A DNA stretch of 64,000 bases from Symbiotaphrina buchneri (lineage: Eukaryota; Ascomycota; Symbiotaphrinales; Symbiotaphrinaceae). The stretch covers positions 434,001 through 498,000 of the forward strand of contig BCIG01000003.1 in NCBI GenBank assembly GCA_001599915.1, given 5' to 3'. Each line of letters opens with the position of its first letter. Within the stretch, counting starts at the first letter, position 1. Under the pieces are notes generated by a model. The model was not told the DNA's origin. It saw only the letters and a list, made by a program, of their open reading frames with translations, and ran no database searches. The translations under genes and the position numbers were made by a program. This document shows, one piece after another, positions 20,073-49,527 of the stretch.

Positions 20073-20475
20073 TCAGGAACTACGAAAACCCAGAACCATC
20101 AACAAACGGTGATGAGGGGGGTGGAGGAGGAGGAAGAAAAGATACACGAAGAAAGGGGGAGGGGGGTTACTGACAATAGTCCGAGCGTGAGATCACCGTG
20201 GATCTTCGCCTTGAGCTGCACCTCGATGTCGAGGTTCAGATCCAGCCGCAGCCGCAGCTGCTCGTCCTTGTCCTTGCCGCCGCCGCCCTGCTGCGCCTGC
20301 TGCTGCTGGCCGCCGCCTAGCAGCCCGCCGGCCGTGTTGCCGACTGCGTTACCGGCACCGTTCAGAGCCTGCCCGGTCGTCTGGTTGACGAGGTCGCCGG
20401 CGCCGCCGAGGCCCTGGCCGACCAACTGACCCTGATCGAGTTGTTGGAGGCCACCCTTCTCGCCATTCTGTTGTG

Positions 20476-20512
<37 letters not shown>

Positions 20513-20878
20513 TGGTTGGCCTTGCTGTTGTTGAGCCATCTTGTTCGGGCGGCGGCGGGGGTTGCCTCGACGGTTGGGTTGACGCGGGATGGATTCGACG
20601 TCGGATTCGCGTTGAAGTTCTGGCTCAGGTTCTTGTTCCTGCTCCTGGTCTTCTTCCTCGTCCTCTTCGTACTCCTGCTCACCGTCGGCTTCGTCTTCGC
20701 CGTCTACCTCTTGGTCTTGGTCTTGGTCTTGGTCTTGGGGGTTATCTTCGGGATCTTCTTGTTCGATCTCGTCGTCCTCCTGCTCGTCCTCGTCGGCAGC
20801 GGGAGTGGGTTGTTGTTGTGGAGGAGGTTGCTTGGTAGGAGTGTTCTTGGGAGCTTTCTTTTCACCGATGGCAGCCAT
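20073..20878 (-). CDS. Acidic, Gln-rich small protein with C-terminal LDLNLD motif (paralog 2)
   Basis: Exon 1 20878-20175. A phase-2 donor (GTCAGT) occurs at exactly the same codon position as in paralog 1. With the acceptor at 20080 the last exon is again 7 nt (20079-20073), giving about 236 aa; this acceptor is less certain than in paralog 1. The start MAAIGEKK at 20878 was chosen because a TATA-like element lies about 53 bp upstream, inside the longer open frame. The layout is a Lys/Pro/Gln N-terminus, a very acidic block with DQ and EQ repeats, a basic RRGNPRRRPNK patch, a CTG-encoded poly-Gln run, a Gly/Gln-rich linker, then LRLRLDLNLDIEVQLKAKI and HGDLTLGL. The same order as paralog 1 supports duplication. 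Function is unknown. Confidence 0.7.
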
Positions 20879-20930
20879 GATGAAGGAGGGATGTTCAGAG
20901 ATAAAGTATTCTTCTGTAGCAGAGCGTCCG

Positions 20931-20936
20931 TATATA
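20931..20936 (-). promoter_or_regulatory. TATA-like element of paralog 2
   Basis: A TATATA core lies about 53 bp upstream of the MAAIGEKK start codon on the minus strand. It supports taking the internal ATG rather than the upstream in-frame one. Confidence 0.45.
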
Positions 20937-23540
20937 AAGGCGTTGGTAGATGAGACAGAGTTTGGTATGAAATCAAGGTTCGATAGCTTCAATGCAAGAT
21001 GAGGTGATGTGTTCGTAGTTTTGTATCTTCGATGCACGCCTCCAGAAGCAGGCGGCTGCATCCCAGGCCCGGAACATTCGCGGCTCTGACGCCATAGCGC
21101 TGATGATCCGAGCCCTACCCACCGGAAAATTAGGGCTAGGGAAAGCCTGAAGCAAGTTCACGGTCGTGAGATTGTGGGCCTTTCGTCAGCCACCGCGCAT
21201 TTCAGAGGCTGGTTTTTGCATTTGGGTCACATCGGTGGATGGTCATTCGTCCGCGGTCAGGGTCCTTAAGCTTCGGATGATCACTGCCAAGCCGGCTTGG
21301 ACCTGCAGATCGCCTCGCTTGGCGCGGTGTGTGACGTTGACCGGGGGTGACGCAGGGCGCACAAAAACATGGTTCTATTGTTACAGCCGCGATCCGGCAG
21401 GATTCCCTTCCACTCGTTGCTCAAGGCAAGACTTGGTTTCAGTAGATCAACCGGGGGTGGGCGTCTTCCGGAAGATTCTGTGACTCGCATGCTGTACTAC
21501 GAGCCCTTGCACGGCAAAATAATGTGATGCGCGACTCCTCGATCAAAATCCTGGGTGTGATAAGATAATGGTGGAGCTATCCCTTTTCCGACGATATTTG
21601 TTCAGCTTATCCATACTACGTACACCCTGTACTGGAAAGTTGCAGTTGCAAACATCGAGCCTCTGAAAAGTCCATGCCGTCTGATGCGAAGGCTACGACA
21701 ATATCTCCGAGTCAATGACGTGGGGAGACCAAGCGCCGGCCTTCCGTCGGACAGCAGAGGGCCGGGCAGCAATTCACTAGCCACAGAATTGACATCATGC
21801 TCAGAGCATGCGCCACAGCTCATGTCTTTCTCCATGATACCCAGATTAACCGGGGCTGATTGAAGTACAACACACCGAGGTGCTGTAGAGGAGTTGGCGT
21901 CAAGTGGTGTGGTGGTGGGCGTCCATCAGATTCTCGGAACTCGGCGCGCCTGGCCGCGCAATCCTGATTTTTCCCCTACATTAGCCGCCGTTTATCCCTG
22001 CCCTGCTCCACACCGCGAATAGCTTCCAAGATTTCCTCCAAACTCTAATGTGCGTCGATCCGCGGCGCCGCTTTTCCGTGTTTCGTATTCAAGCAACACA
22101 CCACCTCTTCGGCTGGAGTTTCACGCGGCGCAGCAGTAGCGCTGTGGCATCGAAGATGGTACCAGAACTGTAGACGTCTCGGTCGTGGCTCGTGCGGAGG
22201 ACCTTCCCGCACAATTTTGACTTTCTTGAGACCAGGCGTGTCAGGCTGTCCAACTTAGAGCTTCGTATGAAAATCCCCGCTCATTAGTCGCTTGCATGAT
22301 GCAGCGATGGGATGATGCAGACTCTAGGGCGTGCCTGCTGAAAGCTGCAAACAGGATTCTGTGGCTCGATTGCAGTGGCTGTTGCAATGCAGATCGACAA
22401 TGTCTGTAGCCATCGCTGGCTCCCAGCCACAGTGTCCGAAGCATGCTGAAAGGACTGCGGCGCGGATGTATGTACTCGTACCTGGTATACGTGTACAGGT
22501 GTGTCAACTAGCGGGAGGAAAAGACGATCATTAGTTTTGAAAAGGGGTAATTTCAATCCTGCGTTTTTTGGAGATAGAACCGCATTTCACAGTGGACCGA
22601 CTACCTCAAAATGCTCCGACGAACTGCTCTCTGGAGAACAGACACCCGCATGGTCACTGAGCAAAAAGAACCCGAGATCCTAGTTGTTATCGCTTCTCTG
22701 AGATTTCCATGCTGAGATTTCCATACTGAGATCTCCATACTCTCCGCGGCGTACCTGCGCCTCGAGTCAGTAAGACAGAATGAACAATACCTACAGGTTA
22801 CAAGCAATACAAGGCTGTCCTCTGATACCAGCGAGCCAAGAACCGTAATCAACTTGTCCGGCCAGCGCTCTGCAGGCAATCGCCGATCACTGTGGCTAGT
22901 GACTACAGCCAGCCTGTGGTCTGAAGCACGCAGAAGTTGCGCTCGGTTGCAGTATCATACTCTCAACATCAGACGTGATCTACGTCAGATGGAGCTCTCT
23001 TGTCCGCGCATCCCTGTTACTCGCGGCTCTTGGGCAGAGACAATGTCGCCTCATGTACCTTATCCACCAAGAAATATGATACCATCCCACCCAGGGTATG
23101 AGGAATGTCGACGTTGTACTTTGTACATCCTCCGCATAGGACAACGTGCGCAAGCTTGGCTCACTTCGATCCACAGTATGGCCCGACTGGACGAACGGCG
23201 TCGGACCCTTCCGCATAATGGACGTCACATTGTTGACAGCTCGTTCAGCTTCGGTTGCACCCAGCCCGACCCAATACCAGAGTAGCTGTAGACTTGAAGG
23301 CCATGACGTCGATATCTCATACTTCAGGGTCCGCAGAAATCGGAAAGCAAGATTCCCAGCATAAGCCTCAAAGACCTTAAAAAGAGCAGCGTCCAAGCCA
23401 CAGATATATCCTTCCTTTTTTCTCTAGACCTCAATGTCTTCTTATTGTATCCATCAAAACCAAAACGCTCCTACTTGAACTTGATAACCATATATCGATA
23501 CAACCATTGAACATATTGAACATAACTCGCCGTACCCACC
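20937..23540. other. Gene-poor stretch upstream of the LEA-like gene
   Basis: About 2.6 kb with only short, mutually overlapping open frames. It includes the upstream region of paralog 2 and the promoter and leader of the LEA-like gene, with a pyrimidine-rich tract ending in CTAG near 23410-23427 that may be part of a 5' UTR intron. No gene is supported. Confidence 0.45.
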
Positions 23541-26494
23541 ATGACTGAAGCCGTTCAGCGTCCGCAAGCGCCCCTCCGTACGGGTTCTGGCAACATTGGC
23601 AGCCCCAAGACTCCCACGAAAGGGCTGAAGTCCGCAAGCTCGACACCCAGCAAAGCTGGCAGCTCCACGGCCAAGAAAACCAAAGGAGCTGCCGGCCAAG
23701 CAACCGGACAAGCAAAGGGCACAGCCCAGGATGCAGGCGGCAAGGCAAAGCAAGCCGCTCCGGAGCCAGTGCAACAGACTGCGGACGATGTCCAGGACAA
23801 AGCGGAGGATGTAGGTGGTCAGGCCCAGCAAAAAGGCGAAGAGGCTGGCGACAAGGCCAAACAGACTGCTGAGGATGCTACTGAGGGATCGACTGGAGAC
23901 GATTTCGAAGATGTAGGCGATGATCTGGAAAGCAAAGCGGACGATGCAACTCAAGGTGCTGAAGAGACCGCGGGAGATGCACAGGACACAGCCGAAGATG
24001 CAGCTGAGGAGGGCTCTGAGGCTGCCGAGGGAGCTACAGAGGACGCCCAAGAGACAGCTGAGGGCGCTACAGAGGACGCTCAAGAAACAGCTGAGGGCGC
24101 AGCTGAGGAAGGCACCGAAGCGGCAGAAGGGACCGCAGAGGAAGCCCAGTCAGCAGCTGATGACGCCACTGAACAGGCCGAGGACGATGACGACGCCCAG
24201 TCTGAGGGTTCTGGCTCAGGAGACGAAGTCGTGCCTGCAGGCTCAGTTGATGCCGATGGGCTCGTACGGGATGGCGAAAACAATGTCATTGGCCGTGTGA
24301 CTGAAGGTTCAGCCCCTGAGGGGTCAATAGTTGATCAAGATGGGGATATTTTATCCGATGATGGAACTGTCATTGCCCGCGCAGAGCCCATTGAGGAAGG
24401 GGAGGAAGCAGCAAAGGATGCAGGAGAAGAAGGGGCACAGCAGGCTACCGAGGATGCCGATGACCTGAAGGAGGGCGCGGAGGAAGCAAAGGACGAGGCT
24501 GAGGACACCGCTGAAGATGCAGTCGAGAAGTTGGATCCTGCTGATATCGCCGGCCCGCTCAAAGCCACGGAGGATGGCGAAATCAAGGATGACCAAGATA
24601 ATGTCGTCGCGACTCTGACGGAAGGCGATCCCAAGGAACTTGCCACGCAAGAGATCAAAGAAATCGATGCCGAGAACAATCTCCTGGCAGAAGATGGATC
24701 GATACTCGGAAAAGTATCCATGAAAGAGGTCGAGAAGCCCGACACCTCTATTTTGAAGGACCTCACGGTTAATAAATCAGGATTTGTGGTGAAAGATGGC
24801 ATCCCCGTGGGCAGGCTGGTTGAAGGAAACCCAAAACAAGCCAATGGGCGCCAATGTGATGAATTGGGTCAAGTCTGGGGTGACCGCGGGAAAATTTCGG
24901 GTCGCGTGGAGGTCATCCCTGAAGATGAGAGAGAATCGGGCGAAGAAGGTCCTTTCGCAGACTTCCCAGATAACTACATCGACCGCAAGGGGAATGTGTA
25001 TTCGGACGATCAGATTATTGGCAAGGTCGTCGAAGGCGATTTGAAGAAGGTCGCGAATAAACACGTGGATCCCGACGGCGAAATTTCAGGAAAATACGGC
25101 GTGCTGCTCGGCCGCGCTGAGCGCTGGGAAGAACCGGAGGAGGAGGAGGAAGAGAAGAAAGATAACTCCATTCTAGCCGGGAAACGGGCTAATAAAGCTG
25201 GATTTATCGTGGATGAGCACGGGTCTCTATACGGGAAAGTGATTGAGGGGGACCCAAAGAAGCTCCAGAGCAAGATGTGTGATCGCGATGGAAATATTTG
25301 GAATGATGGGGGCCAAATAATCGGACGCGCTGAAGTTCTCCCTGAAAGCGAACGCGGGCAACAGAAGGAAGGCCCATTTGCAGATTCTGAGGATTGCAAG
25401 GTCTCGAAGGATGGACTGGTAAGGGACGCTTCAGATACCGTGGTCGGCCGTCTTGTCTCAGGTGATCCGAAGAAGCTGGCTGGACGCGCGGTAGACGAAG
25501 ATGGCGATATTACCGATCGCTCAGGCAATACGGTGGGGAAAGCAGAACGGTACGACGAGCCTGAAGAAGAGAAGGAAGAAAACCCGATGGAAGGCCGAAA
25601 AGTCAACAAAAAGGGCGAGGTAACCGATTCCGATGGAAACGTCATTGGGAAACTGACGGAAGGGGATCTCCAACAATGCGTCGGGAAGAAGATTGATGCC
25701 GATAATGATGTGGTAGACTCAAAGAATAGGACCGTTGGCCACGTCACACTTCTGGAGGATATTCCAGAGCCAGAGGAGCCGAAGGAGAGCGAGGAAGAGA
25801 TTCAGAAGAAGAAGCAAGAGGAGCAAGATAAAGAGATTGCTAAGAGGATCTCAGTGGTTATTGACCAGACCCTGGATAAGATCAAACCAATTATGAAAAT
25901 GATCAGCGAGGTACGTTGACTTGTGCTTCCTACCGGTCTCATTCCCAGGCAAATGCTAACTCCTTGCAGCACATCGAAAAAGCGGACCGTACTCCAAGGG
26001 AGGAGCTGGACGAGGAGAAATTGGTGCAGGATGTGAAGCCTCTCATCGAGCAAGGCTCGGGCATCCTGCAAGAATCCAATGGTGCAATCCGCGCCCTCGA
26101 CCCGGACGGCCGCATCCAAGCCAACGCTAAGCACAAGACGGCATCCCACGAAGCCACGCCGGAGGAGTATCAGCTCGCGGACAAGATCAAGGACCTGACA
26201 GAAAACGTGACAACGACCATTGAGAACGCCAAGAAGAAGATCGCGGACATGCCGCACGCGAAGAAGAAGTTGAACCCACTCTGGGGTCTTCTGCAAGAGC
26301 CGCTCTTCCAGATCATTGCGGCTGTTGGCCTGTTGTTGAGCGGTGTACTTGGACTTGTCGGCAAGCTGCTTAATGGACTTGGACTTGGTGGGTTGGTGAA
26401 CAACTTGCTGGGAGGACTGGGCTTGAGCAACGTTCTGGATAGTCTTGGTCTTAGCGACGCGCTTGGCCTTGGTGGTGGGAAGAAGAAGAAATGA
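23541..26494 (+). CDS. LEA-like protein with DUF3659 repeats
   Basis: Exon 1 23541-25910 and exon 2 25970-26494, joined in phase 0 over a 59-bp intron with branch ATGCTAACT; 964 aa. Residues 1-75 are Lys/Ser/Thr-rich. About 75-230 is an Ala/Glu/Asp/Lys amphipathic repeat (EDATEGAEETAGDAQ-like units) resembling group 3 LEA proteins. About 233-745 carries successive DUF3659 units of the form DxDGxVxDxxGNVIGKLxEG and DPKKLxGKxxDxDGxI. A Glu/Lys coiled segment follows, then a Gly/Leu-rich hydrophobic tail (about 892-958) ending GGGKKKK. This is the Pezizomycotina protein usually annotated LEA domain protein. The role is inferred to be stress or desiccation related, or structural; the tail suggests membrane or septal-pore association. 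It stands alone on its strand beside two other hydrophilic proteins. Confidence 0.88.
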
Positions 26495-32850: not shown

Positions 32851-33333
32851 AACGCTTTGGTCTAGGAGCAAAAGAAAGCTGGGGCCAAAAAGCAATGGTA
32901 TAGAGACGCGATGATGTATCATAGACACGCTATCGACCAATTTGTGGACATAGTCCTGGCCAGTTGCTCGATCTCGAGGCATCACATGTCATGAACCTCC
33001 GCACGAGGCTAGACTCATCATCCATTCTAAGTGAGCTCCGATGTAACTAAGCCTCTTGCTGCAGGCTGCTCATTCACTTCCATTAGTGGAGACCATAGTC
33101 ACTGTGCCGACCAGCCACTCATTCGCACATCTTGACCCCTCGTTTACCTAGACCACTATTACCGATTCGGCCCTCGCTCACAGGCAGTAGTTTGTTGACA
33201 AAACATCCCAAGATTGTTCTTCACCACCGCAGTCGCTCTATCGAAAAATCTTTCCCTAGCTCCACTCTGGGATCGTTGTACACCTCATTCAGCAACCCAT
33301 ACCATTCCCGGCAAACACCAGTCCCAGCCCGGT
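32851..33333. other. Intergenic stretch before the small helical gene array
   Basis: FRS2 3' UTR followed by a pyrimidine-rich stretch that should include the promoter of the gene at 33334. An in-frame upstream ATG at 33214 could extend that gene by 40 codons, but the added sequence is not protein-like. Confidence 0.4.
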
Positions 33334-33772
33334 ATGGACGAGTATCTACGAGTAGCCTCGCGCAAGATCAGCTATCTCGCCGATATGGCGATCTACAACC
33401 AATCTGTCATTACAGAAGCCACCCGTACCAACAGCTTCCCGGCAGATTCGACGGCGGACGTGGAAAGGACCCTGGCTACCTACTTCAAGCTCCTGGGCAG
33501 AGAGATCTACGAAGTGGAATTTGCGCTCCTCCTGGCAAAGAACCTAAGCCGGTTCGAATGCTCATTGATGAGACTGGAGGCTTTCACTTCTGCGATTATC
33601 AAGGCTTTCAGGGCAACGGCGCCAGCTGTGAGAAGATCCTGTAAATTCTTTACTTGCAGTGTGCTAATATGGCGTATAGGGTCGATGTACGGCGAGGCTT
33701 CGCCGTGTCCTGCGACTATTGAAAGACTTGGTGACTATGGGGGAAGAGCCATCGGTAGAAGACATGGATTGA
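33334..33772 (+). CDS. Small helical protein of unknown function (array gene A)
   Basis: Exon 1 33334-33627 (98 codons) and exon 2 33680-33772 (31 codons) joined in phase 0 across a 52-bp GTGAGA..TAG intron containing GTGCTAATATG; 128 aa. I do not recognise it. The protein is predicted mostly alpha-helical, with a helical N-terminus MDEYLRVASRKISYLADMA, a Pro/Ser/Thr break near 35-40, a long Leu-rich helix (TYFKLLGREIYEVEFALLLA), and a basic last helix GRCTARLRRVLRLLKDLV with an acidic tail. No signal peptide or membrane segment is seen. It is the first of six + strand genes of similar size and exon layout. An alternative start at 33214 is possible. Splicing is inferred from consensus sites and frame. 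Confidence 0.5.
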
Positions 33773-34528
33773 GAACTGGTGCTGTCACACATGCTGCGGC
33801 ATTTCTGTAGTGGCTGGCGGGAAGGTTCAACTGAATACTAGGAGGGTACCCATCCTGCACCGGCGCGCAACCAATGAGCTGAAGGAGCGCAGCTCAAAGC
33901 TGCCACCTATTTGCTGCCTTCCGACTCGTGTCTATCTCCTGTTTGTATGGAACGATTCAATATCCTAATGGGAAATATCGTTCTCTCTCCTGTCTTGTAG
34001 TAAATGCCATTGACGCAACCTAAGTGAGTCGTGCAAAGGGAAGGATCTTGATGTTAAGCCTGCCACTGTTCAGGTGATATACCTTATCATTCCTGAGTAT
34101 TCGCTATACAAGCCTCCTCGGCCGTCTCCCAGGGTGTGTACATTGTCAGTCATTCTAGAGGTGGGCTCAAGTCACTTAGATCCATCTTACTTGCAGCTAG
34201 AACTGTCCAGTGTAAACAAACCATCATGCACTTCATATTTTTAGGTCGAGGACTACTCCGTGCGCCTCTCTACATAGTCTCCTCCTGTTCTTCTTCACCG
34301 GAAACCGTTCATTCACTGTAAGCCTTCAGACACGCACCTAAATCCCTACTCATCTCAAAGAAACCAGAAAATCGCTCCCTCACAGCTCCGCTCAGCTCTC
34401 ACAATCACATTCGCGCCTCGCAGTCCTCGGATCTCTACATACATTTCTTAAAATAAACCACGACCTGCGGGTCCACTTGTCGTCACCATCGTCACGGCAG
34501 CATTCTTAACGTCAGGGAGGTCAACATC
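33773..34528. other. Spacer between array genes A and B
   Basis: Non-coding. Short frames only; a GT-rich splice-like signal set is absent. It should hold the 3' UTR of A and the promoter of B. Confidence 0.4.
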
Positions 34529-34933
34529 ATGGAAGAAGACTTCAAAAGAACAACGCTCGTGACAGCACTGGCGCATATCAAATCGATGGGACACCATGTC
34601 GACCTGGATACCGCTAGACTGGTCAAGCAGACTACAGAACTCCTTGAGATGTGTGACTTCCAAAAGGATTTGGAGAAAGCGCTGGTCTCCAAGCTCCCAG
34701 TCATGAGGGCCTTCATACCCGAAAATCCGGACGGCATGACTCTGGCAGAACATGGAAGGTACCACATCGTACGGATGGCGTTGTGCATAGTTAGTAGGGA
34801 CATCGTATGCTCATTCTGTTTCTTGGTTCGTTGCAAATTTACTGAATATCAGATGCAGAAGGAATATCAGGAACGTAGCTCTAAGCTGCTTGACGAGATT
34901 AAGGAGGTGCTTCGAGATGGCACAGTTGTCTAA
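34529..34933 (+). CDS. Small helical protein of unknown function (array gene B)
   Basis: An unbroken frame of 134 codons, but a 63-nt intron (34790-34852; GTTAGT, branch-like TTTACTGAAT, CAG) is likely and would give 113 aa (exons 34529-34789 and 34853-34933, phase 0). The intron length is a multiple of three with no stop, so both forms could be translated. Not recognised. The sequence is charged and helical: MEEDFKRTTLVTALAHIKS, then DLEKALVSKLPVMRAF, a turn ENPDGMTLAEH, and a last helix MQKEYQERSSKLLDEIKEVL. The MTLAE turn recurs in related form in genes D and E and in the frame at 47822. No targeting signal is seen. Confidence 0.5.
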   Translation: MEEDFKRTTLVTALAHIKSMGHHVDLDTARLVKQTTELLEMCDFQKDLEKALVSKLPVMRAFIPENPDGMTLAEHGRYHIVRMALCIVSRDIVCSFCFLVRCKFTEYQMQKEYQERSSKLLDEIKEVLRDGTVV

Positions 34934-35420
34934 GGTGTCAGATATCAGGAAGGGTCTACACGGATATGCCAGAGGTCTAAATCCAGGCGAGGGTTCTGAC
35001 TCTTTTTGCTGAGTGATGAACTGGTCTAAGACATAATCTCTTTATCAGTGGGGTCTACCTTACAAGATATCTACGGCGTCAGGATTGTTTCACTCTGCGA
35101 AAGCCCCGGTTCATACAATGAACCACGTTTCAGAATCATCTTTACCCATCCAAGAAGTACGACATCTGTATCCCGAAGCTTGGCCAGTCTAAGTTTCGAA
35201 TAGCTCGCGGGAGAAGCTCAATGAGGAGAGTCTCACCACATCTAGCAGCCGGATACCTGCATCTGTTAGGAACATTTTCTCGCTCATGCTCTAATAACTG
35301 CCATTCTCAGACACCTGACAGCATAATCAGCCGAGATAGTATGAACGCTCGTAGATATAAAGATATCCCGACTCTTCGTCCCTCTTCCTGTCTGAAAATT
35401 ATCCTCCGAACGCACACACC
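34934..35420. other. Spacer between array genes B and C
   Basis: Non-coding with no supported frame. A short A/T-rich element lies about 60-70 bp before the start of gene C and could serve as its core promoter. Confidence 0.4.
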
Positions 35421-35904
35421 ATGAATTCATTCTCCGCCTACCGCCATCTTACCCATCCTATGTTTGGCACAAACCAAGTGTCCCTCTACAACCCGCCGTG
35501 TATGTACCTTACTCATCGTTAAGTACATGTTGGCCGAAACTAATGCTGTATTTAGCTCTTTGGGGTTCCAGACAAACCACTACCCATGATTCAAGGCTAT
35601 CGCTTACCATCGCAAAAGTCAAGTGGTTCCTCGAGGTCATGGAAGAATTCAAGAGACTTGGTCCTCGTCTCGTCGACCAGAGCTTTCCCATTATCTACAT
35701 ACTTGAGCAGTCCCTGGAAAGAGGGCCCCATAACCTGAATCAATCCGATGCCGCCTATCTCGCCCAGGCGATGTACATAGGCAAGGAAGTCGAGCAATCC
35801 ATAGTAAGTCTGGTGGGCATTCTAGGACATTTTGTATTGCTAAGACCTGGGTAAAGGCCGTTATCAAACATATGGTGAGGTCGGTTGATGCTATGGGGAT
35901 ATGA
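35421..35904 (+). CDS. Small helical protein of unknown function (array gene C)
   Basis: Three exons: 35421-35499, 35556-35803 and 35857-35904 (introns 56 and 53 bp, GTATGT..TAG and GTAAGT..AAG, the second with a TTGCTAAGA branch); 124 aa. The last intron is phase 0 and falls 16 codons before the end, as in the neighbouring genes. The N-terminus is Tyr/Asn/Pro-rich, then helices AKVKWFLEVMEEFKRLG, FPIIYILEQSLERG and AAYLAQAMYIGKEVEQSI, and the final short helix AVIKHMVRSVDAMGI. No known domain, signal peptide or membrane span. Not recognised; the model rests on splice consensus and frame agreement. Confidence 0.5.
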
Positions 35905-36410
35905 ATGGTGGAGCCTGCAATGGGGGTTCGTGGGGACAAGATGGTGATCTAGGACGTGATTACGACAGATCATTAGACTTTGCGGGAATTGACTTGACTG
36001 ATTACTTCTACTGTGGCATGGAATATCTACATCGTTGTTGACAATCTTTCGTTCCGCGTTGTATTAGTATGGAATTGGGAGACGCGTTGTGGACATCGGA
36101 GCCAGACCAAAGAAACCGCGTTTGCTGAGCCAACAAAGTCCAAAAACGCGAAAAGAGCAACGCTACTCGTGAGTGTGAAGAACGGCTCTGTTAATACTGA
36201 TTAGCGAAGCCTGGTAGATCATCAACGCCGTTCTCCTTCCATCTTCAATCTCGACAAGAGGGGTGATTAGCTTTCTCTCATCGCACGTTCCAGTCTTTCT
36301 CGGTCCCGGACCCTGTATCAGCAACCCGGTTCTATCAGTGCCTTCGGTGAGAAGCTGTCGATCGTGAGATACAGGCCTGGGACTAACTAATTGTTTAGGA
36401 TAGTGACACC
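35905..36410. other. Spacer between array genes C and D, with a possible 5' UTR intron
   Basis: A GTGAGA donor near 36349 and a branch/acceptor set (CTAACTAATTGTTTAG) ending at about 36399 suggest a leader intron just before the start of gene D. No coding exon upstream is secure. Confidence 0.35.
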
Positions 36411-36857
36411 ATGAATCGTCTTTCACAGTTGGTGTTGTCACCATTGACCCCAGCTCAGAAGGAGATCCATACAGCATGCATTGAGACACACGGTCACAAG
36501 CTCATAGAGATCCAGCAAGAGTACGAAATGATTGAGGGACGGCGCAACTGGGTCATACAGCTCATGGCGGAAGCGTACGCAAAGGATCCTGCCAGAAATC
36601 CCCCAGGGACGATTACATGCCCAGAGCTTCATAAGCAGCTCAAGGTAGCATACTGCTCTGCAAAACTTCGATGTGACGCTGACTCCAGGTAATAGTCCCA
36701 GGCGAAATTCCAACTTATGCGCCTCCTGCAGAAGATGGCTGAGCACAGGACTAAGGTCCACGCACTGGCGGATGAGCTCGTGGATGCCTTTGAGAAAGCC
36801 GCGGCTCTGAAGCCTGAGCAAGATGGAGAGGCGCCGACGAAGGAAAACGATGGATAA
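36411..36857 (+). CDS. Small helical protein of unknown function (array gene D)
   Basis: Exon 1 36411-36644 (78 codons), exon 2 36702-36857 (52 codons including stop), phase-0 intron of 57 bp; 129 aa. The protein is helical and charged: MNRLSQLVLSPLTPAQKEI, then a helix with EIQQEYEMIEGRRNWVIQLM, a turn NPPGTITCPELHKQLK, and after the intron a long helix AKFQLMRLLQKMAEHRTKV with an acidic tail (DGEAPTKENDG). The turn resembles the MTLAE turn of gene B and the PGTMTLSEQ of the frame at 47822. A leader intron probably precedes the ATG. No known family. Confidence 0.5.
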
Positions 36858-37103
36858 GGAAGACCTACTCCTAACCTTTGGCTTAGTTAGTCTTTGGTAT
36901 GAATGGGCTAGCTGTTATCACAGAGGATGATTGAACATGGGGAATCTACGGCAAGGCAAGCACCTAGTCTGATGGCAGAAACGCATTCATGTTACGTTAG
37001 GAATCAGGAAACTTATCTTGAACCTTGGACACATTGTCGTTCTGGAAGATACGCAGTCACTTTAAGTCATGGCATATGATATTTTAGTTGTAGTGGCCAG
37101 TGA

Positions 37104-38151
37104 ATGCTGGCAATGCCTATGCCACCTTCGAGTTTCATGCTCTCATCCTCATCTTCCCACTCTCACTCGTCGTCCCACCTTGCCGCTGTACCTTTACCAC
37201 CCTCTCTTGCGTCAAAGTCTCGTTGTCAATATCAAGGTGTGATCGACCAGTCATGCTTCGCTCCTCTGGTGAGTCCATTCAGCGACCACGTGTTCTTAAT
37301 TAAATACTTGAAAGTACTTACCATTCAAGAAAGAAGCGATGAGTTTCATGAGAGGGCTCTCTGAGCTTGGGAAAATCATCTCCAACCTCGAAGATACAGA
37401 AAAGGAGATGCAAGCCCAGCTTGAGATGGTGAAGGACATCAACAGAAGAACCCGCGCCGACAGTCAAGCGATCGCCGAGGGTCTGTTCGGAACTCTTGAG
37501 ATTCTGACGTACGGCGAGATCATGAAAATTCAGAATGTCATCGAGTGTCACGAACGTGTCATGATCCGTTCTGTGAGTCTCTTAACCAACGATAATGTGA
37601 GCTTTTAGCTGACAATAACAAAGGCGGAGATGCAGACGGAACTCGTCTACCTCATCGGCCAGATTCGTGAAGTCAAGAGGGGATTTGAACTGCAGGAGCA
37701 GATCCTCCTGAGCAGCCAGCTGGTTGCGGCCCACTTGAACGAAACGCAAACAGCCGGCACCAGTGAAATCCAGACACCCGACACCAGCCAAACCCAGACA
37801 TCCGACACCAGCCAAACCCGGACAACTGGCGGCATCCGAATCCTGGAGTCTTCACATCCAGCGTTCGGAGAGGGCAGTGTTGTTACTCACGTAAGGCATC
37901 TCGGACCTTTGTGCGGCAACCAGATCTTCCTCCAGTTTGGACCGGCTACGGTGGCAGATGCTCCGCAGGTCTCCGCTGAGGAAGAATATGCCAAGGAAGA
38001 ATACGCTGAGGCAGAATTTGTTGAGGACTTCGATGATGGGCAAAGTGCACTGGAAGTGGAACCTCAAGAAGCACAGCAGCAGCATGTCTTCCCCCCTCGC
38101 TCTTCAAGCATGCACTGGAGGTTGGACCATGCAGCCGACACGACGGAGTAG
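37104..38151 (+). CDS. Coiled-coil protein of unknown function (array gene E)
   Basis: Exons 37104-37268, 37330-37572 and 37624-38151, both introns (61 and 51 bp) in phase 0; 311 aa. The first exon encodes a Ser/His/Pro-rich segment. The second is a strong coiled coil (LSELGKIISNLEDTEKEMQA, then INRRTRADSQAIAEGLFG) with an ILTYGEIMK turn and a helix up to the intron. The third continues the helix (AEMQTELVYLIGQIREVKRG), then three 8-residue TSxxQTxD-type repeats (37747-37818), then an acidic Glu/Tyr-rich tail. It is the largest array member and the only one with an added C-terminal domain. The start could be any of three clustered ATGs at 37104-37119. Function unknown. Confidence 0.5.
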
Positions 38152-38826
38152 ATGCCGTGCGGACGCAACGTCAAGGATAGCGTGATGCCATGTTGCGGAG
38201 GGCACTACGAGGCAGAATGTCATTTGAAGGTGGAGTGCGATCTGATCATCATGTACCATGCTTGGATCGTGATCACAGGATAAGAAAATAACAACGACAT
38301 TGCTTGTTGCTCCCAGTAGTGCTTCTGTATCTTTCAGACCTCTTCCTTTCAAGTGCTAGGAGGTCCTGCTCCACCCTTCGAAATGCCTTCGTAGACCCCA
38401 CGATGCAGGAAAATGAGGGCTTACCCGTACTTGCCGCTGGCTGGCACAAACTATATCCTCAGACTCTTAAAAACTTCCTATTACAGCGTAGGACATTATG
38501 CAGGACTTGAAATGCACGCAAAGGTACCTTAATCATGGCTCTTCCGTGGTACGTACCTCAAGGATAGATTCACTTCGACTCAATGATGCTGCTAACGTCC
38601 TCATATGTGGTCAGATGTCCACACATTCACTTACGCCGAATCCAGCCACACGTACACAATGGCCATTCTTCTCCTTCTCTTTCCCTCTCTCTTCCTCTTT
38701 CTCTTCTCCGTATCTCCGTACTGCAACTTACTACAACTTCGTCACACCGTGCTTCGACAGCTCCCTCTACACATTACTGCAAGCCATATCCCATATCTCA
38801 CGCCTAAGCTTTCCCTCATAGCAACA
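38152..38826. other. Spacer between array genes E and F
   Basis: Non-coding; a long pyrimidine-rich stretch at about 38660-38720 lies upstream of gene F and is typical of fungal promoters or leaders. Confidence 0.4.
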
Positions 38827-39240
38827 ATGGAATCCGTAAGGCTTCATCCTTCTCAACCTGGAACGATCTAACAATAGCAGGAAGCGGAGACATCCTCCCT
38901 GAGCATTCTCTTGCAGGACGCAGATACATCGTCCATCGACATGCTCCTCATGCCTGAACCCTTACGCTTCACTCCCAAAGCGCAGAACATTGACGGAATG
39001 CTCAAGGAGAGCAAAGTGCTCATGAATCAGCTCGATGACCTTCTTGCGCGCATCAAAGCAACTGAGGATAACATCCGACGATCCCTAGCCCAACAGCGTT
39101 GTGAGAATGGAGAAGAGAAGACCGTGTGCAGTGCGCTCGACGATGAGAATGAAGAGGGCATTTGGAGCGCAGCTCACGTTGAGGATGGAGAGACTACTTG
39201 CAGCGCGTCTGACGATTCTTCGTGCACCGAATGTAAGTAG
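38827..39240 (+). CDS. Small acidic helical protein of unknown function (array gene F)
   Basis: A 3-codon first exon (38827-38835, MES) is joined in phase 0 over a 45-bp intron (GTAAGG, branch GATCTAACA, CAG) to 38881-39240; 122 aa ending SSCTECK. A GTAAGT donor at the very end could instead splice to an acceptor near 39282 and stop at once, changing only the last residues. The protein has a coiled-coil core (LKESKVLMNQLDDLLARIK) and an acidic tail with three Cys-Ser-Ala or Trp-Ser-Ala repeats (TVCSALDDENEEG, IWSAAHVEDGE, TTCSASDDSS). No known domain. Last of the six tandem small genes. Confidence 0.45.
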
Positions 39241-40216
39241 CTGAGACACCGGAAGCCAACTGCTGAGTGCTAATGTGCACAGGAACGCTTCGCGCAGGGA
39301 GACTCCGGAGCACTGAGATCTTTCACTGGGAAGTTAGGGCTTGTGGCCGCAGGTTGGATCATTTTTGATATGGCTTGCAGTCATCTTGGAGGACTTGGAA
39401 GACTTGGGGGATTTGGAGGACTTGGTGGGCACGTCAGAGGAGTGCAAAGTAGCCTTGGAGCGAAATATCTAGAAGAAAGGCCATAATCTGTCAATTTCTG
39501 CTACGACAGATTAGCAAACAAACCTTCACCGTTTCGGGTCGATGTATCCTTCCCTTTGTAGACATTCCTATCAACTTCGCCAATCCAGATCTCCACTCAT
39601 GTTCGATCAACCTTCTTGATACCCAACTTACTGGTCCCTTGCTGCACAGGCTAAGACTTTGAGAACTCCCGATTGAGCTGTAGAGCACCCCACTGTCTCT
39701 TGGGTGTGTCCCTTGTCCGTTCTTGTTTCCGGTACGGCTTGAAGTACGAATAGGGGCTGAAAAAGGGGTTAGTTGCTAGGTTGTATTAGTCATTCTAATG
39801 GGCGCACCTGTGCACACAAGCACAGCCGTTGGACTGGAAATGAGAGCATTTCCGTCCATCTTTCTCCCCACGTGGAATTCTTCGCAAAGAACAACGTGCG
39901 CTCGACTTAAGTAGTACAAAACTCCCTTTCAGCGATAACGTCCTCAAGTAGGCAATGGCTTTTATGCCTTGCCAGTTCTTTATTTCCATCTATGCCCAAT
40001 AATATCTTAGCTTTTAGCTCTGCTTGGTGTGGTTGTTTGACGGAAACCGGTAATGTCCGCTTCCGGTGGACGGTCGCCAAGTTGTTCCGGCCGGACAACT
40101 CCAAAAAGTCAAAAACGCCATAACGCGCAGATCACCACACCACACCCTCCCTGCTGTCCCTCCCGACTTCGGCCCTCAGGCAGCAGTCACGGGATACTAG
40201 TCCTGCTGTCAAGTCG
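39241..40216. other. Intergenic stretch after the small gene array
   Basis: A Gly-rich open frame (about 39283-39486) follows the F gene but has no start and no in-phase splice partner, so it is not called. The rest is promoter or leader of the gene at 40217. Confidence 0.4.
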
Positions 40217-41961
40217 ATGGCCACATATCATGATGCTCAGCTTGAGCAACTGATGAAAGATCTCCTCCACGGCTTCCACACCCTATACCGAGAGTTCCAA
40301 GTCCTGAGAGAACAGAAACAGGCTCTCGAAGACAAACTCAGCTTCGCAAGTGGTCAGGTAAGTCCGCCCATCCTTTTCCTATCGCAGCCTTGGCAGCCCC
40401 TTCATCCATATGATGAGACATCTTAGCTCTAGATCTGTAGCTGCTTCTGCAGCAGTGGAGTGACTTTTTACATTTTGTCCTGATCTTCTTCATCTACATC
40501 ACTATCGATCGATCGTTCATACTGTATAGTGTCGGCTACTAACCTCAAGGTGCCGAGCAGTTTCGCGTCCTCGAAGACAAATACGCCCAAGGTACCGACG
40601 GAGAATTCGTCGCGGCCAGAGCTGCTTGTCGCTGGGAAAAGGAGGAATCACACAACCACGGGGAAACACAGGATGCAATCTTCAAAGGCGCTGAAGCAGC
40701 GGATATAATCAGCAATATGATGAGCTTTGATCTTGCGACATCCAAACCATCACTTCCGCTCAAATCAGGAGATACACCTTCCGCCACTGTCCTTGACTCA
40801 GACAGATCGAATACAATGGAACGGAAAGCCACTTTGGAGAAGGATTTCACGACGCCGGGAAAGCCTAGTCAGCTCCAATGTCCTTTTGCGAACAGGGGAA
40901 ATCCAATGCCACAAGGAGACAAATCATCACAATATCTCATTCCTGATATACGCCGACCACCGACTCCACCGGATACCAAAGATCACAGTGAACCTACCCC
41001 GAAAGACGACGCGAGCCGTAGGTTACAGCCGTCAAATAGCTCATTCTCGGAAGCTGCCAGTTGCACCTCTAACAACAAATGTCCCATCCGGTTTCTCGGT
41101 CATCAATCGCCAGAAGAGATTGCAGAATACTTCGAGAAGCACAAGCACGAGCTTCCAAGAAGCCATGCTGTTTGTGTCAAACGTTTCCAGGGCAATGCCG
41201 AGAGTGTCCGACAACTTGATGCAAAGTACGGGAACCTTGTTAGCATGATTCAAGCTCTTGGTCAGAAACATAAAACATATCTTCCGGAGACACCTCGTTT
41301 GGAGGAAGAAGAGGAAGAGGAGCAGGAGCCCGTGCCTCGGCCTACTGAGAGGGTAGAGAAGTGGGCCAGGAATATTACACCGACTGAAGAAGGGCTCGGC
41401 GCCCAGGATGAAGAAGCGCCTGCCAGTCTTGACGAGGAAGAGCGGGAAAGCCGCTTCGACAGGCCACTTCGGGAAGTCCGGGTGGGCGAGTCGCCAAGTC
41501 GCCCCTGGGGTATCTCGGTGCCAATAGAGTATGAAGAACCTCATGTGGAACCGTCGCCTGTTAGGACGCAGAGTGCCGTGACCCCGGCGGCAGTTAAAAA
41601 TTCGGGGCGGCCGGCCGGGAGATGTCCCTTCGGTCACGGCGCTCCAGCGGAGGATATGACCATCAAGGTGGAATCACGAAGCCTATCCAGTGCTAGTGTA
41701 AGGGGTAGCTCGGCAAGTTTGACAAAACGGGAAGAGGCTCCTAAAGGCCTTCGGTCTGCGACAGCACAGCCCGCCCCGGCTGTCCCTTCAGAGCAGCCTG
41801 CAAAGGCGACCACACAGCCCGCTGTACCCAGTCCGACCTTTGTCACACCCTCTGCTGGTCAACCTCAGATGCTGTTCACGGGACCGGTGTTTATTGGGTA
41901 TCCGATCGAGCAGGCTATACAGCTGCTGCAGCAAACATCCCTTGGAGCGCCAGGGAAGTGA
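40217..41961 (+). CDS. Conserved fungal CPI/CPF-motif protein of unknown function
   Basis: Exon 1 40217-40357 (47 codons) and exon 2 from 40561 (or 40558) to 41961, phase 0, over a long 200-bp intron with a perfect TACTAAC branch; 513 aa. A coiled N-terminus runs across the junction (MATYHDAQLEQLMKDLLHGF then FRVLEDKYAQGTDGEFVAAR). Three Cys-Pro motifs are visible: CPFANRG (about 153), CPIRFLGHQSPEEIAEYF followed by HKHELPRSHAVCVKR (about 220-255), and RCPFGHG (about 401). I recall the middle block as conserved among Pezizomycotina proteins of unknown function; the paired Cys/His residues hint at metal binding, but this is inference. The remainder is Pro/Glu-rich and disordered, with a hydrophobic FTGPVFIGYPIEQAIQLLQ end. 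Confidence 0.7.
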
Positions 41962-46081: not shown

Positions 46082-46955
46082 GAAGAAGGTAGGCTTCGAT
46101 TATATATCCGTAGACATGTGACTAACGTAAGAATAGTGGATATACGACTTGTCAAAACATGCGTGCGGGAAGTTCTGGCTCTCTTGTTCCCTACGACGAT
46201 TCCTCTGGCCCTGGCTCTTGGTCGGCGCGGATGTGGAAAAGCTGGAGATATTCAAAAAAGAAACGGTTTAGGGATAGAAGACATACTAGCAGGAGCGTCG
46301 TGCTTGAACATGGGACGGCAAAGCCGACCTTGTCGATGGAACGAGGCTCGATGTGCCTCTTATGTCTATAAGATGGTCCAGGAAGGGCCTTGACGAAGCC
46401 CAGTGGATTTTTGAGCCACAATCGAAGACTGCAGAAGTCAGAAATGCCGTTGATGACATTGTCCGTGCTGTTATGGAGACACCGATGCACAATAACTACA
46501 CCGATCTTGAGTTCCATACATACTGCTCCAGAAGCAACATTGTGACAACACAAGATATTTTGTGGAGGTTCATGCCTTCCCAAGTCTATCTATCTCCGTA
46601 CAAGCGTCAACTTACCTTTTGAGGAGCATTCCGTCAAGAAAGGAAAAGACGGCAAGACACATTCAGCCCAGCTCAGAGGCGATTGAAGCACCATATTGGC
46701 CGCCACCGTCGGCGTCGTATTCTTGCTAAAGCGTAAAGGAGATCGGTCTCAAGGTCAAGAAGTCTCCGGAAGTCCGCGCAGCGCATGCGTTCCACCTGAC
46801 GTCTGGGGTTGATTTTCTGTTGTGAACTTTCACTTGTGTGGCCTCCTGGGCCTGCCTCGGGGTTGTTTTTATGAAACACTTTCCCCGTATGATCTCGTTC
46901 TTGGTCTTATGGCTCGAGCACCATCCAAAATGACAACGCCGAACGAGCGATCATT
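46082..46955. other. Interrupted frames of unclear gene(s)
   Basis: Two protein-like frames overlap out of phase. One at about 46139-46371 follows a plausible intron (GTAGGC..., branch GTGACTAACG, acceptor at 46138) and reads NMRAGSSGSLVPYDDSSGPG then a Lys/Arg-rich stretch. The other at about 46353-46622 contains a helical segment with AEVRNAVDDIVRAVMETPMH. They may be pieces of one decayed or mis-assembled gene. No family is recognised. Confidence 0.3.
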
Positions 46956-47445
46956 TTGCAAAGCAATGAAGCAGCAGATAGCACTGTGCCACGGTTCTCC
47001 GACGAGCAAAAGCCCAAGCTCAAACATGCAATGAAAGAAGCGTTATACAACACGACGTGGGGAAACGAGTTGTTACGTGAAATCCTCTCCGAATCATCCC
47101 CAGATACCGCTCGCATACGCAATTTACAGCAACAAACAGAGCAGAGATGTGATCAATTCAGAAAAAAGCTGTATATCGAGCTTCTCCACAAGTCTAAGTT
47201 GTGGACTATTCCTGTCCAGAATCCTACCATGCGCAAGGAAGACTTCGACAAGCTCCATTCTGGGATTAGGAATGATTTGGAATCGATCAGCTTTCTTCTG
47301 CTTAATCCCAACTATTTTCACAAGAGTTTTCTCATCTTCTGCACAGTAAGTACTATGAGACATGATGCCTTTTGACTTGGCTGTTCCCTTCTCGTAGAAT
47401 CGCCAAGAGGGAAAGGAAACTGGTCCAGCGGAGCAAACTTCATAA
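46956..47445 (+). CDS. Putative small helical protein (unknown, incomplete model)
   Basis: An open stretch to 47345 (130 codons from 46956; no ATG at its beginning, so an upstream exon is likely) followed by a 52-bp GTAAGT..TAG intron and a 16-codon last exon (47398-47445), phase 0. The product is helical and charged: FSDEQKPKLKHAMKEALYNT, then RNLQQQTEQRCDQFRKKLYI and DFDKLHSGIRNDLESISFLL. A phase-0 intron just before a short last exon repeats the layout of array genes A-D. The 5' end is unresolved. Confidence 0.35.
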
Positions 47446-47529
47446 CCGCAATGGAACAGAGTCAACGTTGGACAAGGACGACATCACGCTCTTGTTCCAA
47501 CTAGGGTCAGAAATGATCCTGCGACAACT

Positions 47530-47888
47530 ATGCTTCGAATACAACAGGGAACCAGGGCGGCAGATAGGAGCGTGAAATACACTATGTTGTACAGGACCGA
47601 GGATGATCAGGTCGTCTGCCTGGTTCCACGATGTCTGGAAAGCTTTGAGTCGATTCCTGCTCTGATCGACCATCTGGTGTATCATGCCAGAAGGACAGAG
47701 CCCCATTCTTGCAACCGTGAGCTATCCCTCAGCAATTCGTATCGTCATACATACAGAGTGATTTGAGACCTATAGACCTTCCGGAACGCAAGTCTGCTCA
47801 CGGCTTGACGGACTACCTCAAATGCAGATCTCGGATGGCAGATTATTCTCAAGACTTTACGTTCTACTGTTGGAGGAACAAAACTTGA
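47530..47888 (+). CDS. Putative single C2H2 zinc-finger protein
   Basis: Exon 47530-47716 and exon 47776-47888 joined in phase 1 over a 59-bp GTGAGC..TAG intron; about 99 aa. A C-x4-C-x12-H-x3-H finger is explicit: CLVPRCLESFESIPALIDH then LVYH. The C-terminal exon reads HLPERKSAHGLTDYLKCRSR and ends WRNKT. It overlaps, in another frame, the start of the frame at 47822, so at least one of the two models is wrong, or the locus is decayed. An upstream exon is possible. No promoter or homologue is recognised. Confidence 0.3.
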
Positions 47889-48619
47889 CTGAGTTGTCAA
47901 ATACCTTGGGCTTCGAGAAAGGAAGATTGATAGCTGGCCACAAAGAGAAGAGCAACGTTCTCGAAAGATATTATTATGGATTCTTCTATGATATTGATGT
48001 TGTTGGCATCCAGCTTGGGGAAAGTGGAATCAGGGAAGAGAATCATGAGGCCTCCTTTGCTTTTACATATGTCGATACAGCACGAGCTAGAGGTCGCTTT
48101 CTGTCAGCAGCGACGGAAAAGCTTCTCCAGGAAGATCCGAACTTTCCTGGCACAATGACTCTGTCTGAACAAAGGTCATATTCTCGAAGGACCAGAATGT
48201 ACGCTCAGTCAGTGCTTCTCAAGGATCAAATAAAAGCAGCGAAATATCAACTATCCCAGGCAAAACTGGAATGAAGAAAAACAGACTTCAAACAAAATTC
48301 GGCCAAGCTCGTTGAACAGTTCCTGCATCGAGCAAGGCAATTTATCAAGAACAAGATATCCATAACAGATACTGAAAATAACCGTATGTGATCGATCTTT
48401 TCTTCAATCTTCTTATCTTCCTCTACCCTCCATCCCTTTCTACGTCATGTCTAGAGTTATACTGACTTTCTCAAAGGCGATCAAAGCACGTACTTGATTG
48501 CTGATGCCATTGATGTTGAGGACGATATCGAAGAAGCAGGGGATGATTCTCACGCCATTCATCGGGAGATTGATGTCGATGATACGGAGACTGATCCAGA
48601 AGACGAAATCGAAGCCTGA
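47822..48619 (+). pseudogene. Helical/coiled-coil protein gene with an in-frame stop
   Basis: A frame from 47822 runs 150 codons to a TGA at 48272-48274. The same frame then continues protein-like for 36 codons (KLVEQFLHRARQFIKNK) to a GTATGT donor at 48384. An intron with branch ATACTGAC ends at 48476, and a last exon to 48619 gives an acidic tail (IDVEDDIEEAGDDSHAI). Coiled-coil character is continuous on both sides of the TGA, so it looks like a recent nonsense change (CGA to TGA would fit) or a sequence error. The part before it contains DPNFPGTMTLSEQ, similar to the turns of array genes B and D. The first exon is uncertain. Family unknown. Confidence 0.4.
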
Positions 48620-49527
48620 GGTTCCGTACGAGTCCGCCGTTGAAGGCTTCATGACATGCATACTTGAAGGGAGCTTCTCGTCGGACACCGGACAATGGCC
48701 ACGACGATGTCCTATGTGTCTTGAAGATAGTATGTCAACAAAGATACGAAAGAGAAGCTTTGGAAAAATAAATCTTTACTTGGACGTCATATGAATGGTA
48801 AAGGACATTCACCTTATGAACAATGACGAGGAAAGACAATAGCAGCTGCAGAGAGAGACCCTGGAAAACGTTCCTAATACACGTACTGTATTGATTCACA
48901 TCCTCCAGAACAACCTGTACCCAAGGACTGGGCGACTTACAAATCCGGGGTATCAAGGGGATTTACTTGATCTTAACCACCAAGATCGATTGACTAAGGT
49001 ACAGTACTAGATCAGATTGTGAGATTGGACCAAGGAAGACTTTTGTGGCTGGTTGATCAAGGCCTTCACTTTCTGAAGCCTGATTAAATCAGATTGTGGG
49101 GTGTGGTTAGATCCGATATGATTAGTGCTGTACTTTCATAGATCGTCGGCGGCTTCCATATGGAAGTGAATACCATAGGTGTAGTAAACTTCCAGAACTT
49201 CTTATTACCAGCTAGATCATTGATCGTAGATGCTCGCCGGCCGATTACCGCTCGTCAATCGCCGGTGAATCTCTTGTTCCATCTCAGTTTAAGATTTTAC
49301 CCCTGGACCCCTGAAAAAAGGGAACCGAGGCGGACAGACCGTAGCTTCTGGAAGCGCCAACCACCAACCTCCGGTCTCGCACATGCTTGACCTCCGCACG
49401 CCAAAACAAAACAAGCAACGCAACCCTCCTAAACCCGCCAGGCAACCACTTTCCGTCCCCAAATATATTTTTACAAACACCCAAGACCAAAGCAAAGACA
49501 CAGCAGAGCCGACTCAATTGACCCATC
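48620..49527. other. Intergenic stretch upstream of the Sfh5-like gene
   Basis: Short frames only. The last 100 bp before 49528 contain an A/T-rich TATA-like stretch (near 49460-49472) followed by an A/C-rich leader, fitting a promoter for the next gene. Confidence 0.45.

Follow-up and report, generated by a model that had tools for sequence, protein, structure and literature searches.

A 2009 study of Neurospora crassa orphan genes (PMC2684829) describes tandem paralogs among N. crassa orphans, with 73 of 82 consecutive pairs arranged head-to-tail at a mean identity of 36%, and an enrichment of N. crassa orphans at subtelomeres. Two further reports describe Neurospora clusters of lineage-specific genes with HET-domain genes (PMC10684091) and orphan clusters in Zymoseptoria tritici, some of which lie near transposon clusters (PMC5082898). 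Here we compare these systems with six small genes, A–F, in a window (the whole 64,000-nucleotide stretch that was analysed) of the 23.4-Mb genome of the fungus Symbiotaphrina buchneri. Like the tandem N. crassa orphans as described there (PMC2684829), A–F are consecutive, head-to-tail and mostly unannotated, and they are presumably lineage-restricted, as those genes are; unlike them, A–F show no detectable similarity where paralogy is detectable in N. crassa, and their position on the contig is internal. They resemble the Neurospora clusters (PMC10684091) in comprising several genes with few or no domains, but we found no HET-domain gene beside them. As in the Z. tritici clusters outlined in the third source (PMC5082898), the genes are shorter and more often lack Pfam domains; those clusters were defined by absence from another strain, whereas A–F are described here from a single genome.

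Results

Six plus-strand gene models, in head-to-tail order, fit within positions 33334–39240 of the window (467–473 kb of a 918-kb contig), bounded by a conserved phenylalanyl-tRNA synthetase alpha (PheRS alpha) gene and a larger gene of 513 aa. One flanking gene matches tRNA-synt_2d and the other has no Pfam match. A comparison of the synthetase with prokaryotes returned 132 relatives, and the 80 listed comprised 79 archaeal titles, one bacterial MAG and no fungal title. Six genes on one strand are expected by chance with P about 0.024, and across 264 kb no other run of same-strand small genes (<330 aa) is as long (five, or six with D, against at most three elsewhere), in a comparison where 200 of the 264 kb consist of 10-kb pieces, which shorten runs. 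The intergenic spacers measure 0.48–0.76 kb, correcting an initial estimate of 0.25–0.75 kb. Such short spacers and a common strand might also be expected if the initial annotation had broken up one or two larger genes, with A–F as their exons. We consider this highly improbable, since an ATG, a stop and a spacer are present for every model, and a gene finder separates A–F under both strict and relaxed settings.

That gene finder, with coding and intron models trained without the array region, largely reproduced the six genes as first drawn. Under the strict model A and C were recovered exactly, E and F were shifted by 9 and 3 nt, respectively, and B was given another donor; D was recovered with first-round or relaxed models, and not with the final strict model. 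On random intergenic-like sequence totalling 300 kb, the gene finder made only one prediction (35 codons).

Gene A (33334–33772, + strand; 128 aa) has exons at 33334–33627 and 33680–33772, identical in the strict and relaxed runs, with a small margin, and a 52-bp phase-0 intron (33628–33679) with a branch-like CTAAT. Gene B (34529–34933, +) encodes 118 aa, or 113 aa with the donor chosen initially, in exons 34529–34804 (or –34789) and 34853–34933. Its intron is of 48 or 63 bp, phase 0 and without an in-frame stop in either form; the donor at 34805 (GTATGC) is more likely than that at 34790 (GTTAGT), so the intron is probably 48 rather than 63 bp. For gene C (35421–35904, +; 124 aa) the gene finder gave the same three exons, 35421–35499, 35556–35803 and 35857–35904, separated by an extra, phase-1 intron (56 bp) and a phase-0 intron (53 bp) whose donors stand at the 87th and 100th percentiles of 112 introns. 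Gene D (36411–36857, +; 129–131 aa) has exons 36411–36644 and 36702 (or 36696)–36857, with the annotated frame scoring positive in both, and a phase-0 intron with a weak donor, GTAGCA. Gene E (37339–38151, +) is the strongest model (28–29 bits), with exons 37339 (or 37348)–37572 and 37624–38151 and a 51-bp phase-0 intron; at 253 aa its product is smaller than the 311 aa first given as the upper size. The N-terminal half is helical, and the C-terminal half carries tandem repeats at 37742–37824 and 37974–38017. Gene F (38827–39240, +; 122–123 aa; 13 bits) has exons 38827–38835 and 38881 (or 38878)–39240; its sole intron, of 42 or 45 bp, follows codon 3 in phase 0, and there is no terminal intron. 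By eye, the protein has a coiled-coil-like middle and an acidic tail. In the relaxed run a doubtful third exon was appended to F at 39381–39472.

We asked whether A, B or D are most likely decayed or spurious models, leaving only E, F and perhaps C as working genes. Relaxed score margins were 27.9 for E, 13.0 for F and 3.4 for C, near zero for A (0.3) and B (0.1) and negative for D (−2.9). Donor percentiles among the 112 introns were likewise low for A (18th), B (11th, at 34790) and D (2nd), as would be expected of such models, and D was lost under the strict model. However, the annotated frame outscores the other five in every gene and lies inside the 5–95% range of held-out genes from this genome, the score of C (−0.57) being slightly below the off-frame 95th percentile (−0.39). 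All six margins also exceed the maximum of −3.4 among 150 random 1-kb pieces, D barely so, in a comparison in which the stretches differ in length and the D model is the exon-2 piece only. In a copied part of D, moreover, amino-acid changes are comparatively few (p 0.045, from just seven changes). Decay or misprediction of A, B or D is thus unlikely in our estimation. Computationally, A–F are protein-coding genes, least clearly D, then A and B; support is strong for E and F, moderate for A–C and least for D, and the six genes appear genuine.

The copied part of D, comprising the end of exon 1 and the whole intron (36583–36702, +), recurs at C3:822681–822800 with 87.5% identity, 352 kb from the array. 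The two copies differ at 15 of 120 positions: the 20 codons carry four synonymous and three non-synonymous changes, and the intron differs at 8 of 57 positions. We considered whether the C3:822 kb region might be another array of small helical genes, with the D copy as a relic, and rejected this, because a DNA search resolved the region into a patchwork of fragments whose pieces resemble C9, C18, C24, C31, C1 and D, with an additional short C13 match nearby. A literature search for patchwork gene fragments gave no matching paper. The region suggests that A–F could themselves be a patchwork of captured gene fragments. This is at odds with DNA searches over 32860–40540, which, with very common words skipped, matched no other locus save the 120 bp of D, and we regard capture as a most improbable origin. 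The protein parts of A–F match only themselves in the genome, with that same exception.

The products had been described as mostly charged helix, and by mean helix propensity only 3 of 20,000 random sets of six, drawn from 41 other small proteins of this genome, were as helical, a test weakened because the genes were chosen partly for helicity. We found no signal-peptide-like or membrane-like stretch by a crude hydropathy scan (which for E and F covered residues 1–115 and 1–75) and no Pfam family for any of these consecutive genes (best E 0.07), in agreement with the initial annotation. No HET-domain gene was seen in or beside the array, and no HET family was found among the 20 larger window ORFs scanned, which is less than a full annotation; a putatively HET-like fragment at 16.4–17.0 kb of the window has no Pfam match. 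In sequence searches of the PDB, A matched nothing, and the first 118 aa of E reached no better than E 0.097. A structure search of the PDB with the model of A returned 57 hits at E 10 or better; none reached 0.001, the best being 0.96, and at a model pLDDT of 61 the search is uninformative. Searches of viral contigs found nothing for D or for exon 1 of E, nor for the control, gene G.

The terminal introns of A–E were proposed to share phase 0 and a position before the last helix. All five are in phase 0, with a chance probability of about 0.011 given 26 of 64 elsewhere; when all seven array introns are included, the bias weakens to 6 of 7 (P 0.038). The helix position can be upheld for A and B at most, in low-confidence models: AlphaFold2, run without an alignment, predicts three helices for exon 1 of A (pLDDT 61), the third stopping right before the intron, and five for a read-through model of B (pLDDT 48). 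By our reading of the sequence, the terminal introns of C, D and E each seem to interrupt a continuous helix.

If the six are one family expanded by tandem duplication, as first suggested, similarity might be expected between members, but none survives correction. The best of 15 pairwise protein comparisons (using the first 115 aa of E) was C/E, with a shuffle p of 0.026 and a rank of 9–10 of 295 when compared with 294 control pieces from other proteins. In ungapped comparisons anchored at the phase-0 junction D/E and B/C stood at 0.24% and 2.3% of background pairs, among 19 comparisons, and the regions upstream and downstream of A–F had nothing in common (best p 0.052 of 30 tests). A MAFFT alignment of A–E has zero invariant columns.

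A shared motif was considered and rejected. P-x-x-M-T-L occurs in B, ORF H (window positions 47822–48274) and a C18 ORF, and D carries P-G-T-I-T-C; a looser pattern, devised once these had been noticed, gave nine six-frame hits in 277 kb, five of them being B, H, D, the D copy and the C18 ORF. We discount the motif because the pattern was made after the fact and because leave-one-out profiles failed: H ranked 7 (E 1.8), B ranked 21 (E 9.6), D was absent from the list, and at the C18 locus only other ORFs appeared, at ranks 128 and 236. D and ORF H match by BLASTP with E 0.47. ORF H was also set aside as a candidate for membership of the family. On C25 it has a relative (50% over 124 aa) that matches DUF3435 weakly (E 0.0034, with 16.8 bits where the cut-off is 25.8), which suggests that H is a mobile-element relic.

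The failure of every pair to exceed chance after correction is what would be seen if A–F were six unrelated orphan genes, gathered in a gap tolerant of new genes and alike in helicity by convergence. Consistent with this, three control small genes exceed the array mean helicity, two of them adjoining at C3:826–829 kb, so small helical genes exist outside the array. Against it, a common strand for all six genes and a phase-0 terminal intron in five of them would each arise by chance in about 1–2% of cases. We consider separate origins possible, at perhaps one chance in three.

Discussion

We tentatively favour, at close to even confidence, a cluster of six genuine, probably lineage-restricted genes that encode small soluble helical proteins and are most likely old tandem duplicates. 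For this reading the gene models, helicity, lack of further copies in this genome and strand were computed directly. We infer a common origin and fast divergence: A–F would derive from one or two ancestors through old head-to-tail duplication and would have diverged until alike only in protein class, strand, size and intron phase. We likewise infer lineage restriction and a binding role. Each gene would give a small soluble protein of amphipathic helices, forming a bundle or coiled coil, and since we found neither a known domain nor a signal peptide or membrane segment, these proteins would likeliest act as intracellular helical binding or oligomerisation partners.

A more specific possibility, which we think improbable, is a tandem family of intracellular four-helix proteins in which fold and intron site were kept while sequences drifted beyond detection even between neighbours. 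If true, this would be as expected of an arms race or a self-recognition system.

Since the sequences do not prove a family, the locus seems to be an ordinary lineage-specific gene cluster and, as things stand, is one more orphan-gene cluster of a known kind. If a fold proves common to the six, the array would be a compact case in which to measure how far duplicates can drift without losing structure or intron site, and to ask what causes such drift.

Coding evidence for the six genes

The array comprises six small orphan genes encoding helical proteins, A (33334-33772), B (34529-34933), C (35421-35904), D (36411-36857), E (37339-38151) and F (38827-39240), all on the forward strand. We scored these genes with a coding model trained on 70 long ORFs, with 32.8-40.3 kb excluded. 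In every gene the annotated frame ranks top of the six frames, with scores per 100 nt of up to 4.62 (the models scored for A, C and F were one base off at an exon edge). Held-out genes score between -5.12 and 5.57 (5-95% range; median 0), and C is the only array gene slightly below the off-frame 95th percentile (-0.57, the lowest of the six, versus -0.39).

We also wrote a gene finder that treats both strands with separate states for coding, intron and intergenic sequence. Its training sequence, 264 kb in total, was made up of the window and twenty 10-kb stretches, with the array genes kept out of the coding and intron models. The gene models of the initial annotation were largely reproduced: exons of A and C are identical, whereas the start of E lies 9 nt downstream, the acceptor of F 3 nt upstream and the donor of B 15 nt downstream (34805 rather than 34790). 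D, whose donor (GTAGCA) is at the 2nd percentile among 112 introns, was recovered both by the first round and under relaxed priors, but is absent from the final strict run; relaxed priors also give F a doubtful third exon. The false-positive rate was one prediction, of 35 codons, per 300 kb of random intergenic-like sequence. Margins over the no-gene path are 28-29 bits for E, 13 for F, 0.9-3.4 for C, close to zero in A and B and below it in D, against a maximum of -3.4 among 150 random 1-kb pieces at the relaxed setting. On these margins, support is good for E and F, moderate for A-C and weakest for D. We conclude that the six genes are probably genuine.

Encoded proteins and intron positions

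The products are 128 (A), 118 (B; 113 with the earlier donor), 124 (C), 129-131 (D), 253 (E) and 122-123 aa (F). A scan of the proteins, covering residues 1-115 in E and 1-75 in F, gives 19-31% charged residues, a top hydropathy mean of 0.99 over 19 residues, and high helix propensity. The whole-protein helix-propensity mean of the six is lower (that is, more helical) than that of random sets of six drawn from 41 other small proteins, with only 3 of 20,000 draws matching it, a comparison that is not independent because the genes were originally picked partly for helicity. The helical class is real, as proposed, and the proposed lack of known domains was also borne out: A-F have no Pfam family match (best E 0.07), and PDB sequences contain no match to A up to E 1 and none below E 0.097 to the N-terminal 118 aa of E. 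From composition alone, we infer a putative function as helical binding partners inside the cell.

A shared phase-0 intron before the last helix had been proposed, and its phase is borne out in A-E, where the terminal intron is phase 0 in five of five genes (26 of 64 genes elsewhere; P = 0.011); counting all introns of the six genes, six of seven are phase 0 (P = 0.038). Its position relative to the helices is less uniform. AlphaFold2 without an alignment predicts three helices in exon 1 of A (residues 3-31, 37-67 and 71-95; pLDDT 61), and the intron follows residue 98. For a read-through model of B it predicts five helices, including 72-89 and 92-129 (pLDDT 48), and therefore the later donor, after residue 92, is near a helix break. 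In C, D and E, however, we read the helix as continuous across the intron.

Relationship among the array genes

The initial annotation had viewed the array as one tandem-duplicated family. All six genes share one strand (P = 0.024; elsewhere, 28 of 59 neighbour pairs do), and this, together with the phase-0 terminal introns, is an indirect sign of one family. No similarity test among the members survives correction, however. Smith-Waterman comparison with shuffles of the 15 pairs gave a best p of 0.026 (C/E), all others being at least 0.13, and C/E was also the best pair when scores were ranked against 294 pieces of other proteins (9-10 of 295). Ungapped alignment anchored on the phase-0 junction (19 comparisons including alternative models; background of 51 junctions) placed D/E at 0.24% and B/C at 2.3% of background pairs with the best model choices, and other pairs at about 9% or more. 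Comparison of upstream and downstream regions gave a best p of 0.052 in 30 tests. A single family is plausible but unproven.

A partial copy of D in a sequence patchwork

When one exon per gene was used as a protein query against the genome, A, B, C, E and F returned only self-matches, and D matched itself and 22 residues at C3:822677, on the same contig. DNA searches with three overlapping queries spanning 32860-40540 found one extra place: 36583-36702, the end of D exon 1 and its entire intron, recurs at C3:822681-822800 (105 of 120 identical). Scoring by the search tool is confined to the best candidates, and remote copies may therefore have gone undetected. The intron differs at 8 of 57 bases, and across 20 codons the differences are four synonymous and three non-synonymous (p = 0.045).

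The surroundings of this copy (L014:488-1622, equal to C3:822488-823622) are a patchwork of about 1.1 kb, in which adjoining or near-adjoining short stretches are 74-88% similar to other loci: contigs C18, C31 and C24, array gene D, C9, C18 again (a second place) and C1. The patchwork possibly consists of captured gene fragments; on the simplest reading D is the donor of one, with the direction not proven.

A dispersed sequence was also seen at L014:488-684, L116, L117 and C24:505340-505431; related copies lie on C3, C18, C31 and C24, with 80-84% identity to the C3 copy. In the C3 and C18 copies, the gene finder predicts this sequence to encode a portion of a small protein bearing an HMHM-x-H motif; the ORF on C18 matched no Pfam family. 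Near the patchwork are two small helical-looking genes with phase-0 introns, L014:2970-3344 (106 aa) and L014:4638-5046 (97 aa), the latter exceeding the array mean in helicity.

Genomic context

The window, C3:434001-498000, belongs to a genome of 23.4 Mb in 82 contigs, whose gene content and short introns suggest a filamentous ascomycete. Upstream of the array is a phenylalanyl-tRNA synthetase alpha gene (tRNA-synt_2d, E 1.4e-69; last exon ending at 32850), and downstream a 513-aa gene (40217-41961) whose second exon has no match in a Pfam scan.

Elsewhere in the window, a degenerate-looking gene region at 46893-48640 includes an ORF (47762-48271) with 50% identity over 124 aa to a site on contig C25, where the ORF has a weak, below-cut-off DUF3435 match (E 0.0034). 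DUF3435 is linked to mobile elements, and the region is likely a relic of a DUF3435-type gene of such an element. An ORF on the reverse strand (16420-16995), which we take to resemble the C-terminal part of HET-domain proteins, had no match in a Pfam scan. Two neighbouring reverse-strand genes, 17322-18127 and 20073-21061, have glutamine-rich bodies and, by eye, an alike C-terminal block (LRLDLNLD...), and are probably duplicates. A forward-strand ORF of 797 aa (23526-25919) contains seven DUF3659 stretches.

The array is the longest same-strand run of small genes in the 264 kb examined, although 200 kb of these were read as 10-kb pieces. Of 82 consecutive pairs of orphan paralogs reported in N. 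crassa, with a mean identity of 36%, 73 are head-to-tail, and orphans there are enriched near telomeres (PMC2684829, 2009). Wang et al. (2023; PMC10684091) report clusters in which orphans occur with HET genes, Plissonneau et al. (2016; PMC5082898) report that short orphan genes form clusters in Z. tritici, and a review (PMC12684174) describes regions of a similar sort. The array fits this known kind of orphan-gene cluster, from which it differs in that its neighbouring genes have no detectable similarity to each other and in that it is internal on its contig.
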